From Candidatus Methanomethylophilaceae archaeon (lineage in GTDB: Archaea > Thermoplasmatota > Thermoplasmata > Methanomassiliicoccales > Methanomethylophilaceae), in assembly GCA_944321505.1 (NCBI GenBank), contig CALULN010000023.1:1-64000 (forward strand): a stretch of DNA of 64,000 nucleotides, written 5' to 3'. Shown piece after piece: positions 2,687-10,245 of the stretch (the stretch's first letter is position 1; each line of letters begins with the position of its first letter). Position numbers and translations under genes: made by a program. The notes below the pieces were generated by a model that saw only the letters and a list, made by a program, of their open reading frames with translations, ran no database searches and was not told the DNA's origin.

Positions 2687-2707
2687 GCGCGGTCAATCGC
2701 CTGCGGT

Positions 2708-2717
2708 TGATATAACC
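2708..2717 (-). promoter_or_regulatory. TATA-like box of the 337-aa surface protein gene
   Basis: On the minus strand the sequence reads GGTTATATCA. Its centre lies about 26 bp upstream of the ATG at 2686, the spacing expected when transcription starts at or next to the start codon. Confidence 0.5.
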
Positions 2718-2803
2718 GTATGCGTTCGTGCGAAGCAATCGGTTAGGAAAAGCGGACCAGCACGGCGACGGCATGCATCCAGATGCGGTTTCCGGGTGCC
2801 TGA

Positions 2804-2811
2804 TTTATAAT
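2804..2811 (+). promoter_or_regulatory. TATA-like box of the giant surface protein gene
   Basis: The sequence TTTATAAT stands out in a GC-rich context. With archaeal spacing it places the transcription start near 2832-2836, giving a leader of about 75 nt. This is unusual here, since most nearby genes appear leaderless. The 11-G tract and a Shine-Dalgarno hairpin lie inside this leader. Confidence 0.55.
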
Positions 2812-2853
2812 CGGACAACGCGCTGACATTCCCAGAGCGCCGAGTGCGCATTC

Positions 2854-2864
2854 GGGGGGGGGGG
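2854..2864 (+). repeat. Homopolymeric tract of 11 G in the 5' leader of the giant surface gene
   Basis: Eleven consecutive G residues lie 43 bp upstream of the ATG at 2908 and downstream of the predicted transcription start. Such tracts are prone to slipped-strand length change. The tract can pair with the C-rich stretch at 2882-2893, which also contains the bases that can mask the Shine-Dalgarno sequence. A GTG at 2844 opens a stop-free frame through the tract; it is out of frame with the ATG at 11 G but would be in frame at 10 G. Confidence 0.85.
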
Positions 2865-2888
2865 CGACGCCTTCTGCTTCTCCCCCGC

Positions 2889-2903
2889 CCTCCGGAAAGG
2901 AGG
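2889..2903 (+). promoter_or_regulatory. Shine-Dalgarno sequence within a possible hairpin
   Basis: The ribosome-binding site GGAGG (2899-2903) precedes the ATG at 2908 by 4 nt. It is preceded by CCTCC (2889-2893), and the two can form a five-base-pair stem with a GGAAA loop. This could hide the site, and the upstream G tract could compete for the CCTCC side. Confidence 0.45.
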
Positions 2904-2907
2904 ACAT

Positions 2908-5900
2908 ATGAAGAGATTGTTGACGCTGGTGGTGGCAGCCTTCATCGTTCTTGGATGCATTGCAGTGATGGACATATCTGCAGGCACATCCGATCAGAGC
3001 GGCGAAGCCACGCAGTACGATTACTCGCTGGACCTCGGAACAGCACAGGACGTAGACGTCCTAAATCAGAATGCCGAACAGACAGATCCTAGTGCGGATG
3101 CATTGGAGTGGTATACGCCCGTCGGCAGGACACTGACCATCGACAGTGTGGATGAACTTAGAGAGTTCGCCTACGTGGTGAATTCCGGAATCGATGATTT
3201 CGAAGGGAGAACAGTGTCTCTCGTCAAGGGCGTGTATGACATCTCCGGCTACGAGTGGAAACCCATCGGGATAACCGTCGAAGGCTCAGACGGAATACTG
3301 GTTGACTATTCGTTCAAAGGGACTTTCCTGGGCAACGGATCCACCATAGCCGGACTCACCCTCACTGCAGATGACACTCCATGCTACAGCGGGATGGACG
3401 GCGACTACTACGCTTACGGATTCTTCGGCGGAGTAGTCGGAGGCCATGTGAGCGACCTCGTGTTCACCGACTTCATGATTGACGCTCCTGGCACAAGTGC
3501 CAACAATAACACCGTAGCGGTGGCTGTGGGTGCATTGGTGATCAGCGGCAGTGTGGAGGATATCACTGTAGGCCAATCCGGCGACGATGTGATCGGGCAT
3601 TCCCGTACCGCCGGAGTAATCGGGTACGTCGGCGGTGCCAAGACCACAAGTGCACTCGGTGGCGATGACAACGTTCTGGGCGAGTTCGTCATCAGAGGCT
3701 GCGTCAACTATGCCAACGTGTCCGCTCAGTGGAACACATCCTCTCACGGAACCGCCGCCGGCATTCTGGCGACCATCAATGCGAAGGACAGCACAGCCGA
3801 CGGCTGTCTCATCATCATCTCGGACAATACCAATTACGGTGACATATGCGGATACTATTCCGCAGGAATAGTCGCCAGTGACTTCTGCAAGGCGGAGAAG
3901 GCAGTGTCCGGGAACATCAACGAGGGCAGCATCACCACTCTGGTTCCTGCCGATAGCGCCAAGGAGTCCACCAGTGCCGCAGGCATATTCCTGGGACAGG
4001 TATCCACAGGTCCCAGCGATAATGCCGGAATGACCGTTGAGGACAACATCAACAACGGCAGTGTCACCTCTTCGACCGGTACCGCTTCCGGTATAATCGG
4101 CACGATGTACAATGCAGAGGTCTATGGTAACATCAACAACGGCGATGTCACCGGATACAAAGCTGCTTCGGGCATCGTGAAGGTCATGTACGGAGGTGTC
4201 GTGGGTGGCAACGCCAACTACGGTACCGTGTCAGTGACCGTTACTGCAGTAGATGCTGACGATCTCGATGTCTACGCTGGAGGCATCGTGGGGTATGTTG
4301 CTGACAGTTCTTTCCCGGACAGGCACCTCAACGCGGAGCTTGTGGGCGCCACGTATATCGAGTCACCCAATATCGTAGACGGTACGGTCCGCGGCAATAC
4401 GGTGTACATCGGCGCACTGGCCGGATGCGCGGTGAGCGGCACTGTGTACGGTGCCGAGTCCAATCACATCGGAGCTATAGTGGTCACCGGAGGCACTGCC
4501 AAGACGCTGAGGCTCGTGGATTCGCAGATCGGTGAGCTGCGCATCAAGGGAGGACATAACCAGTCCGTCATCTACACTCTCGAATTGGACGGTTCCTCTG
4601 TAGGCGCTCTCAAGGGAATCAGCGGAGCCGTTCATACAGGCATCAACTTGGAGATCAAGGGCGGGGAGATAGGCAGTTTCAGTCTGGATTTCACCGGCAA
4701 TGACGGGACTTACACAACCATCAACCTGCTGATAACCGGTGCTGATATCGGCGAGCTGAAGGTCAGCGCCGGCACTAGAGACAGCCCCGGATACCTGAAC
4801 ATCGCTGCCACCGATGGAGGCTCGGTGGGCATTGTCGATGCCGAATGTAATGTGAGGCTGGGCACGAATGTTGGGGACAAACCGGTCGCCAATCAGGACG
4901 GCATATGCATCGTTCTCTCGCCGGAAACCATCACGCTGAATTCGAATGCATCTGGAACCGTAGCGCCCGCGTGGGCCGTCTACGACGGCGAATGGGATGA
5001 AGAGAAGTTCGGAAACGGTTCCACAACCAGCATTGGCGTGTACAACGCCGTGAGCTCGGAGGTATTCTCCGGTTCGATATCGAACGCAGTCAGCCTGAGG
5101 GATGACGTCAGCCTGTTCGTGATGCCTGGTAAGACGCTCACGGTGTCTGCGGAAGTGACCGGGACTATAGTCGGGATGCCGGGACAATCACAGCTCGAAC
5201 TTCAGTCCAACGGATTGTACGGCAGTCTGAATGCCGGCACCTACGTCGCCACCGAAGACGGGTGGGAGTCGACGGATCCAAAGATCACCGTCACCGTGGA
5301 TGACACGGAGTACGTCTTCGGCAGTTTCCAGGAGGCTCTGCTGTTCGACTATCCAGCCGATGCCCATGTCATCATAGCCCTGGGAGCAGGAGAGTACACC
5401 TACGACTTCAGTTCTTCCAGCGAAGGTTTCTCCGGGAATGTCTTGGAAATCAGGGGTGCTGGCACAGATGATGCTGTGATCATCATCCCCGGGACTTCGA
5501 CATTCACACACATCGGCGACCATACGGGCAGCAGCCTGGCCGTCTCCGGCGTGACGTTCAAGTCGGACGATACCGCAGATAGCAGTCTGAATCTGTGGAC
5601 GTTCATCGACATAACGTTCGAGGACTGCAAGTTCGACAACGTGACTGTTTCACGTATATCCGGAGGCAACGATCAGACCTTAACCGGTCATTTCGTGATG
5701 CGCAGCAACGTCTTCAAGTACAGCAACGGAACGATCACCGGCGGATTCGCCGTGACGATTCTCACAGGAAGCGTGGAGATTTCGGACAACACACTGTCCG
5801 GATATTCACGCGGGTTCAATATCAGCCTCAACGGAAGCGAGCACAGCGTCCTCATAGACGGCAACAACGTGAGCGACCTCACCAGCACATCGAAAGGCAT

Positions 5901-8900
5901 CGCGTTCCAGATCGGAGGGGACATCACGGATACGGACATCGTGGTTCGGGGCAACACCGTCAGTGATGCTCTGTATGCGGTGTCCATCCATGATTCGTCC
6001 GTCGAGACCGCCAACTCCAGGCTGATCCTGCTGGACAACACCTTGGATGGTTTGACAGCCCATGTCTTCTTCGCGGGAGATGCTGCGGAACAGCATGTGT
6101 TCATCCCGGTGCAGGCTTCCGGCAACTCCTTCGGCGACGGATTGAAGATGGTCACCGAAACCGGCACACCCGTTGAAGACGTACCGGTGGCTGTCGCTTC
6201 AGAGACGATAACCGTCACCGGCGACGTTCAGATATCATCCGCAGAGGATCTGATATCCTTCGCGGCGCTGGTCAATTCGGGAGTCGACTTCACCGGGAAG
6301 ACCGTCTCTCTGAACAACGGCATCGATTTGAGCGGATACAAATGGATACCCATCGGCTCTCCGGCACATCCGTTCACCGGCGTCTTCGATGGTCATGGAT
6401 ACACCATCAGCGGACTTAGCATCGAGAAGGTCGGTACCGAGAACATCGATCTGTATGTCGGTCTCTTCGGAAACATCCTCGGAGCACCGAACGACGAGTT
6501 CGCACAGGTCTCCGACCTGTATTCGGACGGTTCGCTCAACGAAGGCGCAATCTCTGACGGGAACTACACTGCAGTGGTCAGGAATCTGATCCTCTCCGAT
6601 GTGAACGTCCGGGCCAGCGGTTCATTCGTCGCCGCGGTTGCGGGTCTGGCGGAGAACGCCCTGTTCTGTGATGTGCATGTGGTCAACGGCACCGTGGTCG
6701 GCACCAACTCCGTCGGGGGAATCGTCGGCCGCGGATACAGTGTCGTCATCGACGGATGCAGTGCGGGCTCAGAAAGCACCGATACCAAGGTGGAGACGTA
6801 CAACGATGCTAAGGGGAGCATCTACAACATCGGCGGTATTGCAGGTGCTTTGCGTGCGGCCGACAGTGGATACCCCAGCGCCGTCGTCTTCACAGAAAAC
6901 CGGGCCGACCTGTCGGTGAAGCTCACAACCGGCGGTGCCGGAGGCATAGTGGGACATTCCAACGGGAGTGCATTGCTGATATACGGCTGTGAGAACCGCG
7001 GTGACGTTACCATCACGGAAGTCGGCACCGTCAAATATGCATACAACGCCATAGCCGGAGGCATCGTGGGGCTGTTCCAGGACAATCCCGACAATACCAT
7101 CGTGAACAGCTTCAATTACGGCAGGATCTCCACCGCTGATTCGGTCGACAATCCTGCCGGTGCACTGGCAGGCATAGCCAACTACTATGGCGGTCTGGTT
7201 GTCGGCTCCGGCAATTACGGTGAGATAACCGGCGATGCATACTATGTCGCAGGCATCATCGGCCACGGGACCACCGTGACCATCGAGGAGTGTTTCAACG
7301 AGGGTGCGATTTCCCTTGCAGAGGGAAACACTGTCGGATACAAATCGACAATCTGCGCGGGAACCACCGTCGCCACCTACAAGGATATGGAGTTCAAGGA
7401 TGTCGGCGCTCTCCTTGATGCGCTGGTGAAGGCCGCCAAGAAGGCCAACACGCTCACCGATTCGGGTGCAACCGTCCATCTCGTGGGCGTGACCGTCGAA
7501 GACAACACCGGCATTCTGAACCTTCCGGAGTATCTGAACGTCCTGACCGCGGACGAGAGCGTCTGCGCGGGAATCGAAGTCGGCGACCGTGGTGTGTATG
7601 ATTCCGAGAAGCTGTACAACAACATCGTCCTGGAGCTCGGTGTCCCCGGCGCAGAGGTGACCGTGGGCGATGTGCATGCGACAGACCATGAGGGGCAGCT
7701 GACCCTTTCCGCCGACGATATGTCCGTCACCGTCAACGGCCAGATCGGCATCATCAGGCTGACGGCGGCCGTCGGCATGACCGTGATCAACAACGGGACT
7801 ATCGGAGATGTGACCGCCGGAGACTACGACGGCCCCACCGATGGCACCGGGATAACGGTCTACAACGGCTCCGAGGACGACAAGACCGTTCAGCTTGGCG
7901 GTGTGTCGTCTGGGGTGGCCAACATGGTCTTCCACAACTACGGCAGTCTGAAGGACGAGGCGCTCGGCAACGGCGACTACCTCATAAGGGTTGGTAAGGC
8001 GAACGTGTACTGGCAGACAAACACCTTCGTCCTGTACAACCACAGCGGGGCGGAGATCGTTGGCAAGAGAGTCAATTCCTCAGAGCAGGGCGGTCAGAAC
8101 TACCTGTTCTACATGCCCGGCGGCCAGAGTATAGTGCTCAACATCATGGAGAGTTCGAAGCTCGTCAACAAGACCGATTCCACCAGTACATGGTTCATGT
8201 ACTACGGTCTGGACGGCGTCAACAGGACTCCTGAGTCGGAGTACAAAGGCACTCTGACGATCTCATGCGCATCCGGCACGGTGTTCATGGGTGCGGACGG
8301 CACAACGCCGACATCCATAACCAAGAGCATGTGGGTCGGAAGCGATGACGGCGATGCCATAGGCGAGTTCGTCTCGCCCTTGGCGGTCACGTTCACCGGT
8401 TTCCCCGATGGAACCGTGATAACCGTCATCGACTCCGCCGGAGGGGAACTCGTCGTGGACGGGAACAGCATCAGTCTGGCTCCCGGCGACTACACCGCCG
8501 TGGGATCTTTGGATGGCTATGTCTTCGAGCCGAAGGTGTTCACCGTCGGATCGACTGCAGTGTCCGTGAATCTGGAAGCGGCTCTGGAGGAGCCGACGCT
8601 TGAGTATGAGGTCGAACTGACTGCTGACGGCGCCACCATCACGCTGACGGCGACCCATGTGCTGGACGATGTGCAGTTCGAGTACTATGCGGTCTCCGGA
8701 GGCGCCGACACCAAGCTGGAAGCTAATACGATGGACGTCGAGAAGTACGGCACCTACAGCTTCTACGTTGTGGCGTCCGTAGGCGGGTACACTGCGAAAT
8801 CGCAGACCGTCGATGTGGAGGTCGACCTCCCGATTGCGAAGGTTGAAGTGACATTCTCGCCCAAGAACCCTGTCCATGGTGCCGAGGTCACGGCGCATGT

Positions 8901-10245
8901 GTCAGTCACCGATTCCGCACCGGGCGTGGAGATAACTTATTGGCTGAACGACGGCCAGACGCAGGACACCACCGAAACCGAGTTCGACATCACATTCGAC
9001 GGTGTCGGAATGCAGATCGTCCATGTGACGCTGACATCCTGCGGAGCGTTTGGAGTGTGGGAATTCCCCTGGGTCTCGGAGCAGGTCGAGGTGCAGGTGA
9101 GCTTCCCCGAGTCCACCGGGCTCCCGGCACAGGAGTTCCTGGCTGACCGCGGAACGATCCTCGACCCCTCAGATGTCGAAGTCGAAGGATACATGGTGGA
9201 GGGATTCCTGAAGGACGGCCAGCCCTACAGTGGTCCGCTGCAGGACGACCCCGTGGTCCTCACTGCCGTCCTGTCCCTGGACACTCCGGAGCTGACGTAC
9301 ACGTCGGTCCTGACTCTCGACGGTATCAGGGTGACGCTCTCGGCATCCCACCTGCTGGATGATGCGGAGCTCGCCTGCTACATGGTGACCGATGGTGGCT
9401 CTATGCCGGTCGAAGGAGGGGTCTTCACCACGGACGTGTCCGGAGACTACGTGTTCTACGCCGTGGCCTCCGCCGGCGGCATGACCTCGGAGTCCGAGAG
9501 GGTCACCGTGACCGTGTCCTACGTCGCACCGGCCGTCACCGTGCCTGTGGAGAGCGCGGTCGGATACGCAGGCGGAGGATCGCTGGCTCTGAAAGCCTCG
9601 GCATCCGATCAGGTGACCCTGACCTACGAGAGCAGCGACCCGTCGGTGGCATCCGTCGACGGCAGCGGCGTGGTGACCATGGTCTCCGCCGGAAAGGCGA
9701 CCGTGTCCGTCATCGGCGAGCTGCCCTCCGGCGAGAAGCTGGATCCAGTGACCGTCAGCATCGAGGTGCTGACGGCACCCGCTGTCGAGGGAGTGACCTT
9801 CAACCCGGTCACCGACGCCACCCACGAGATCGTAGAGCGGGTGCTGCCCACGGTCTCCGAGGTGCCGGGGTCGGCGCTGGAGGGAGGCGACGTCGCCGTG
9901 TTCGACCTGACGGGAACCGGAGAGAGGTTCACCCTGTCCTATGCAGACCTGGGGTGGAGCCACATCACCGCCGACAACTGGGAGCGGTACGACTTCTACC
10001 TGGTGCACATAGACGAGGGCTACGATATCCCGTCCTTCACTGCGGGTACGGACGGCATCACCGTCCAGCCGGACGGGTTCAGCCCCTACGTGTTCATCAG
10101 CGCGGAGAAGTCCGCCGATCCGACCCCCGAGCCAGAGCCTCAGCCTGCCGCCGTGACCGTCTCCGATATCTGGATCTACGCGGCATTGGCGATCCTGCTG
10201 GCTGAGTGCGCGGCGATAATGCTACTGAACCGGCGCAGAGCGTAA
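2908..10245 (+). CDS. Giant GLUG / beta-helix / Ig-like surface protein
   Basis: The product is 2445 aa. It has a signal peptide (residues 1-25) and ends in a TM helix (SDIWIYAALAILLAECAAIMLLNRRRA) after a PEPEPQP linker, so it is a type I surface protein. Two GLUG-type modules start near residues 70 and 1098, each with a 'DISGYEWKPIG...FKGTFLGNGSTIAGL'-like unit followed by many 'GGIVG...GNINNG' turns. Between them (about 850-1090) is a right-handed parallel beta-helix-like stretch. Two related Ig-like units of about 100 residues lie near 1895-2210, joined by other beta-rich sequence, followed by a BIG2-like domain (SSDPSVASVDGSGVVT). This architecture is known from adhesins and adhesin-like proteins of gut methanogens and bacteria. 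No enzyme motif is visible. Translation is SD-led, with an unusual G-tract leader. A strong hairpin terminator follows. Confidence 0.8.
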   Translation: MKRLLTLVVAAFIVLGCIAVMDISAGTSDQSGEATQYDYSLDLGTAQDVDVLNQNAEQTDPSADALEWYTPVGRTLTIDSVDELREFAYVVNSGIDDFEGRTVSLVKGVYDISGYEWKPIGITVEGSDGILVDYSFKGTFLGNGSTIAGLTLTADDTPCYSGMDGDYYAYGFFGGVVGGHVSDLVFTDFMIDAPGTSANNNTVAVAVGALVISGSVEDITVGQSGDDVIGHSRTAGVIGYVGGAKTTSALGGDDNVLGEFVIRGCVNYANVSAQWNTSSHGTAAGILATINAKDSTADGCLIIISDNTNYGDICGYYSAGIVASDFCKAEKAVSGNINEGSITTLVPADSAKESTSAAGIFLGQVSTGPSDNAGMTVEDNINNGSVTSSTGTASGIIGTMYNAEVYGNINNGDVTGYKAASGIVKVMYGGVVGGNANYGTVSVTVTAVDADDLDVYAGGIVGYVADSSFPDRHLNAELVGATYIESPNIVDGTVRGNTVYIGALAGCAVSGTVYGAESNHIGAIVVTGGTAKTLRLVDSQIGELRIKGGHNQSVIYTLELDGSSVGALKGISGAVHTGINLEIKGGEIGSFSLDFTGNDGTYTTINLLITGADIGELKVSAGTRDSPGYLNIAATDGGSVGIVDAECNVRLGTNVGDKPVANQDGICIVLSPETITLNSNASGTVAPAWAVYDGEWDEEKFGNGSTTSIGVYNAVSSEVFSGSISNAVSLRDDVSLFVMPGKTLTVSAEVTGTIVGMPGQSQLELQSNGLYGSLNAGTYVATEDGWESTDPKITVTVDDTEYVFGSFQEALLFDYPADAHVIIALGAGEYTYDFSSSSEGFSGNVLEIRGAGTDDAVIIIPGTSTFTHIGDHTGSSLAVSGVTFKSDDTADSSLNLWTFIDITFEDCKFDNVTVSRISGGNDQTLTGHFVMRSNVFKYSNGTITGGFAVTILTGSVEISDNTLSGYSRGFNISLNGSEHSVLIDGNNVSDLTSTSKGIAFQIGGDITDTDIVVRGNTVSDALYAVSIHDSSVETANSRLILLDNTLDGLTAHVFFAGDAAEQHVFIPVQASGNSFGDGLKMVTETGTPVEDVPVAVASETITVTGDVQISSAEDLISFAALVNSGVDFTGKTVSLNNGIDLSGYKWIPIGSPAHPFTGVFDGHGYTISGLSIEKVGTENIDLYVGLFGNILGAPNDEFAQVSDLYSDGSLNEGAISDGNYTAVVRNLILSDVNVRASGSFVAAVAGLAENALFCDVHVVNGTVVGTNSVGGIVGRGYSVVIDGCSAGSESTDTKVETYNDAKGSIYNIGGIAGALRAADSGYPSAVVFTENRADLSVKLTTGGAGGIVGHSNGSALLIYGCENRGDVTITEVGTVKYAYNAIAGGIVGLFQDNPDNTIVNSFNYGRISTADSVDNPAGALAGIANYYGGLVVGSGNYGEITGDAYYVAGIIGHGTTVTIEECFNEGAISLAEGNTVGYKSTICAGTTVATYKDMEFKDVGALLDALVKAAKKANTLTDSGATVHLVGVTVEDNTGILNLPEYLNVLTADESVCAGIEVGDRGVYDSEKLYNNIVLELGVPGAEVTVGDVHATDHEGQLTLSADDMSVTVNGQIGIIRLTAAVGMTVINNGTIGDVTAGDYDGPTDGTGITVYNGSEDDKTVQLGGVSSGVANMVFHNYGSLKDEALGNGDYLIRVGKANVYWQTNTFVLYNHSGAEIVGKRVNSSEQGGQNYLFYMPGGQSIVLNIMESSKLVNKTDSTSTWFMYYGLDGVNRTPESEYKGTLTISCASGTVFMGADGTTPTSITKSMWVGSDDGDAIGEFVSPLAVTFTGFPDGTVITVIDSAGGELVVDGNSISLAPGDYTAVGSLDGYVFEPKVFTVGSTAVSVNLEAALEEPTLEYEVELTADGATITLTATHVLDDVQFEYYAVSGGADTKLEANTMDVEKYGTYSFYVVASVGGYTAKSQTVDVEVDLPIAKVEVTFSPKNPVHGAEVTAHVSVTDSAPGVEITYWLNDGQTQDTTETEFDITFDGVGMQIVHVTLTSCGAFGVWEFPWVSEQVEVQVSFPESTGLPAQEFLADRGTILDPSDVEVEGYMVEGFLKDGQPYSGPLQDDPVVLTAVLSLDTPELTYTSVLTLDGIRVTLSASHLLDDAELACYMVTDGGSMPVEGGVFTTDVSGDYVFYAVASAGGMTSESERVTVTVSYVAPAVTVPVESAVGYAGGGSLALKASASDQVTLTYESSDPSVASVDGSGVVTMVSAGKATVSVIGELPSGEKLDPVTVSIEVLTAPAVEGVTFNPVTDATHEIVERVLPTVSEVPGSALEGGDVAVFDLTGTGERFTLSYADLGWSHITADNWERYDFYLVHIDEGYDIPSFTAGTDGITVQPDGFSPYVFISAEKSADPTPEPEPQPAAVTVSDIWIYAALAILLAECAAIMLLNRRRA

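Follow-up and report, generated by a model that had tools for sequence, protein, structure and literature searches.

A G11 tract as the probable variable element of a structured mRNA leader before a giant archaeal surface-protein gene

A G11 tract in the leader of a surface-protein gene

We analysed a 64,000-nucleotide stretch of DNA (hereafter, the window) from Candidatus Methanomethylophilaceae archaeon, in which a run of 11 G precedes the gene for a 2445-aa surface protein. We are moderately confident that this tract is what varies in a structured mRNA leader, one that would control translation of the surface protein, with slippage changing the tract and output graded by its length. The architecture around the tract is far beyond chance. 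The run itself had been reported in a first-pass annotation, and a check of the sequence found it at 2854-2864. The protein has a signal at its N-terminus, a Big_2 domain and an anchor at its C-terminus, and thus, as at contingency loci, an uninterrupted homopolymer of at least nine bases stands just before a gene of surface function. The TATA-like box (Table 1) suggests a transcript start near 2830-2836, and its distance upstream of the tract implies that the Gs would lie inside the 5' untranslated region (UTR). A search of positions 2700-3000 with Rfam covariance models gave no match at E≤1.

Table 1 Positions of the G11 tract, the leader parts and the surface-protein gene in the window
Feature	Position	Strand	Basis or remark
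TATA-like box TTTATAAT	2804..2811	+	sequence; 43-50 nt upstream of G11 tract
H1, 5' hairpin GCGC-CGAGT-GCGC	2837..2849	+	contains GTG 2844
G11 tract, presumed variable element	2854..2864	+	sequence
Pyrimidine run CTTCTCCCCC, partner of G tract in H2	2877..2886	+	sequence, folding
Anti-Shine-Dalgarno (anti-SD) CCTCC	2889..2893	+	partner of the SD in H3, or else of surplus tract Gs
Shine-Dalgarno (SD) GGAGG	2899..2903	+	sequence
ORF, 2445 aa, secreted C-terminally anchored surface protein, Big_2 domain	2908..10245	+	ORF and domain search

A leader family shared by secreted-protein genes

About 26 leaders, the window's included, stand before secreted-protein genes of this archaeal family and are alike in the order of their parts, namely a TATA-like region some 45 nt upstream of the tract, a short hairpin adjoining it, 9 to 14 G, a pyrimidine run, CCUCC-loop-GGAGG and the ATG. 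The tract is exactly 11 G long in 17 of the 26 (range 9-14). The pyrimidine run is mostly 8-12 long, matches the G tract in length, and is kept in cis, adjoining the anti-SD, in nearly all of them. With the proviso that leaders within one genome are partly paralogous, so that leader statistics overstate independence, the anti-SD hairpin was found in 20 of 23 leaders versus 2 of 69 other SD-bearing genes of the same loci (p = 4.5e-15), and H1 reached a combined z of about -8 against shuffles. The H1 stem score was 10.8, compared with 8.25 (sd 0.53) when 3' halves were swapped between leaders (0 of 500 swaps were as high), so the pairs of H1 co-vary; the four inner positions each show all four Watson-Crick types. 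H3 is not free to co-vary because the SD is part of it.

The leader nearest to the window's (L158 in genome G117) matches it at 38 of 46 aligned positions, and in G020 the same leader, with nine Gs, precedes the gene for a protein related to the window's. That protein was the one partial homologue of the 2445-aa protein found in 61 relatives, with none in the genome collection, so an allele series across species is impossible. At C1:1187000-1200000 of G020, tandem secreted-protein genes have separate G-tract leaders with 9, 10, 11, and 11 G. A strict composite pattern (G10-N16-40-CCTCC-N3-9-GGAGG), searched in 147 genomes of the order, was found in the window's genome, G020, G114, G115, and G117, and its reversed form had no match in the same 147 genomes. 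Further matches in G087 and G095 were set aside, as they occur in a different context and look incidental. The strict pattern was absent from other members of the window's genus, and the leader locus may therefore have been exchanged between genera.

Predicted folding and a possible translation switch

Over the leaders, the cost of opening the SD, a model value like all folding energies here, had medians of 7.4, 6.2, and 1.8 kcal/mol for tracts of 8, 11, and 14 G, respectively. Between the shortest and the longest of these tracts, it dropped by at least 3 kcal/mol in 20 of the 26 leaders versus 14 of 104 with shuffled spacers, while tract-length dependence in the folding model was small in 6 of the 26. 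For the window, adding the eleventh G lowered the predicted cost from about 6 kcal/mol to about 2-3, a step that appeared under three assumed start sites and six coding-sequence lengths and was smallest (about 1.5 kcal/mol) with 45 nt of coding sequence. The break falls between 10 and 11 G because the opposite pyrimidine run offers 10 bases, leaving an eleventh G able to enter the anti-SD arm. When the leader alignment was folded unguided with RNAalifold, the G tract was paired into this arm. The pairing of the tract with the C-rich stretch, which the first-pass annotation had pointed out, recurs in the folding models and proved a better lead than the fusion of reading frames considered below. 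For an RNA ending at the AUG, the closed form remains the one of lowest energy with 11 G in the tract, and 11 G is hence best called a threshold rather than "on". As H2 is stable at every length, kinetics may matter more.

In the switch that we propose, H2 (G tract and pyrimidine run) and H3 (anti-SD CCUCC and SD GGAGG) would coexist for as long as the tract does not exceed the run in length, leaving the SD closed, and each surplus G could capture the anti-SD strand and free the SD. Such a switch would be graded and independent of reading frame. Single-G changes would arise by replication slippage in a lineage with no MutS above the cut-off, and cells in one population would then make differing amounts of the surface protein. 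Predicted opening of the SD showed no length dependence for the G11 tract on contig C21 of the same genome, which lies before another secreted protein, so the SD-displacement model is specific to the window's leader family.

G tracts across the genome, the family, and the order

A first-order model expects about 0.16 G runs of at least 11 in the window, and a single G11 run is therefore not extraordinary by itself. Across the whole genome (a metagenome-type assembly of 1.39 Mb in 31 contigs), the lengths of G/C runs are bimodal, with 11 runs of length 7, none of 8, two of 9, one of 10, and four of 11. The runs of 9-10 bases are intergenic, at terminator-like positions, and three of the four 11-base runs (on C4, on C21, and in the window) lie upstream of secreted-protein genes with the Gs on the gene's strand. 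The tracts at C21:143082-143092 and C4:25833-25843 of this genome (G000) have no SD-hairpin leader. McrA was found in the genome, so the organism, whose taxonomy we infer, is taken to be a methanogen; PylS was not above its cut-off.

G runs of at least 10 occur in 75 of 102 genomes of the family (maximum 94 per genome), and tracts of at least 11 are present elsewhere in the order, mostly few per genome. Three genomes of genus g5 (G021, G079, and G087) carry 94, 63, and 37 G tracts of at least 10, most relatives having far fewer, and G041, from another family of the order, carries 15 of at least 11. We collected 144 distinct tracts of at least 10, including those of about 60 further regions of relatives. 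G-strand tracts stood before a secreted-protein start in 30 of 142 cases, compared with 4 of 457 for runs of 5-6 G, and tracts on the other strand did so in 4 of 142. In the window's genus, genes for secreted proteins, helix-turn-helix proteins, and one DNA methylase have tracts of 9-12 within them or ahead of them.

Tracts of a frameshift type (type 1, the leaders above being type 2) lie within the signal-peptide region of secreted proteins. At L037, L039, L067, L109, L111, and L134 the frame is joined, and at L024, L032, L064, L077, and L144 it is off by one base, as expected for on/off phase variation. A G11 tract at L042 (G003 C4, near 107096-107106) lies in frame just before DPPY in a full-length D12-class adenine methylase (PF02086, E 2e-61), which makes this locus a candidate archaeal phasevarion. 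Another gene, possibly a restriction partner, begins directly downstream. At L159 (G117 C1, about 156710), a DNA methylase gene (PF01555, partial) falls into two frames at a G12 tract, apparently as an off-state allele. At L036 and L026, G11 lies inside helix-turn-helix frames or at their start (weak matches to HTH_24 and HTH_IclR); both are possible phase-variable regulators. In G002, a C11/C12 run (L031/L019) lies about 12 bases before a secreted-protein ATG and adjoins a TATA-like stretch, possibly as a promoter-spacing switch.

Tract-length differences, slippage, and alternative roles for the tract

No MutS was found above the cut-off in 61 relative genomes, while Haloferax and Methanosarcina controls were positive, and archaeal replicative polymerases have been reported to slip in vitro (PMC4134008). 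The one direct indication that tract length varies comes from overlapping contig ends in two sister genomes, at loci other than the window's. In G002, the ends of C12 and C34 (L163/L164) represent one locus with 12 versus 11 G and identical flanks of 77 and 11 bases; in G005, those of C11 and C79 (L020/L037) represent one locus with 9 versus 11 G and identical flanks of 117 and 4 bases. We read such pairs as two versions of a locus at which the assembly broke at the tract, though sequencing error could also produce them. The first-pass annotation had proposed phase variation by slippage at the surface gene, chiefly through fusion of its frame with one opened by GTG 2844. The phase variation itself gains comparative support, because contingency-type tracts occur family-wide, tract lengths differ between contig ends, and MutS is not found above the cut-off, but the fusion does not.

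It is also conceivable, if somewhat unlikely, that the tract is fixed, with its length selected at about 11, and forms one side of a stable RNA fold by which the mRNA is regulated or protected, perhaps together with a small RNA or a protein acting in trans. The predominance of exactly 11 G and the matching length of the pyrimidine run would suit such a leader, but a stem needs no perfect homopolymer, which is slippage-prone, and tract lengths from 9 to 14 do occur among the leaders. Frameshift-type tracts in on and off states in the same genomes, and other tracts that are unequal between contig ends, likewise argue against a fixed length. We regard as improbable that tract length matters but acts by another effector, through a C/U-rich RNA in trans (as for RepG and tlpB of Helicobacter pylori), mRNA stability, or transcription elongation; despite the RepG precedent and a G tract that is an obvious antisense target, the cis pyrimidine run adjoining the anti-SD in nearly all leaders makes a trans partner unnecessary.

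Frame fusion is less probable still. The stop-free frame that begins at GTG 2844, noted on first pass, runs for 82 codons to 3092 and is not in register with ATG 2908, the start of the 2445-aa ORF; the two frames would join at 10 G (one G lost) or 13 G, adding 21 residues before the signal peptide. Tracts of type-1 relatives do lie between start codon and signal peptide, whereas the window's tract lies upstream of ATG 2908 and outside the start-to-stop span. Moreover, ATG 2908 has a strong SD of its own, and GTG 2844 has none and lies inside H1. Across the 26 leaders, we rejected fusion because the tract-to-ATG spacing is frame-neutral (7, 9, and 10 leaders in the three frames), stops occur in the ATG frame (6 of 26), and upstream starts capable of fusing are mostly absent (present in only 10 of 26) and lack an SD (0 of 10). 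Lastly, we give almost no credence to an artefact of assembly or sequencing, even though the assembly is of metagenome type with 31 contigs and two-colour sequencing is known to produce false poly-G, since the tract lies 2.8 kb inside its contig with conserved leader on either side and near-complete genomes assembled as a single contig (G020) show this architecture too.

Implications for phase variation in archaea

Repeat-slippage phase variation has been described as a bacterial trait. The open-access literature yielded no report of homopolymer phase variation in archaea and no match for phase variation together with Methanomassiliicoccales. Homopolymers have been surveyed in 99 prokaryotes, 18 of them archaea, with the emphasis on poly-A/T in coding genes (PMC2831843); a 2025 review left archaeal phase variation to future work (PMC11868660), and a review of archaeal recombinases cites a phase variation system of a haloarchaeal virus (PMC8371274).

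We give roughly even chances to the broader picture, in which a methanogenic archaeal lineage would have a genome-wide poly-G contingency system without MutS. The system would combine a frameshift arm (signal peptides and DNA methylases) with a new class of RNA leader, in which competition between a slipping G tract and the SD for the anti-SD strand grades the output of sets of giant surface proteins. If this is true, cells of a single methanogen population differ in their surface in much the same way as those of Campylobacter or Neisseria, with a bearing on their encounters with hosts, partners, and viruses. The leader would also represent a new and simple translation switch, in which a homopolymer and an SD compete for one strand, with an output that is graded rather than on/off and to which reading frame is irrelevant.

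Comparison with known systems

By analogy, the nearest known mechanism is that of RepG and tlpB in H. pylori, where a G-repeat in the tlpB-hp0102 leader represses at 7-12 G and activates at 14 G or more via the small RNA RepG (PMC8295292). The predicted archaeal switch resembles it in its presumed variable G-repeat, which would lie in the 5' UTR, in the graded expression, and in the C/U-rich pairing partner. However, the partner there is a small RNA in trans, whereas the archaeal leader has a pyrimidine run in cis and an anti-SD beside the SD; the host is moreover an archaeon, in whose genome the leader is shared by numerous surface genes.

Poly-G contingency loci of Campylobacter, Helicobacter, and Neisseria carry G8-12 in genes for surface proteins and DNA methylases and change by single-base slippage. 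Frameshift tracts of this sort occur in the archaeal family too, but the window's tract is non-coding and its spacing frame-neutral. Homopolymers in promoter spacers, as at porA of Neisseria and sabA of H. pylori, are non-coding and grade the expression of surface proteins. The window's tract is likewise non-coding with a predicted graded output, although it would lie within the transcript and not between promoter elements. Finally, the leader shares with SD-sequestering hairpins (RNA thermometers and translational riboswitches) an anti-SD/SD hairpin and a competing upstream strand, but here the competing strand is a homopolymer whose length would be set by mutation, not by ligand or heat.
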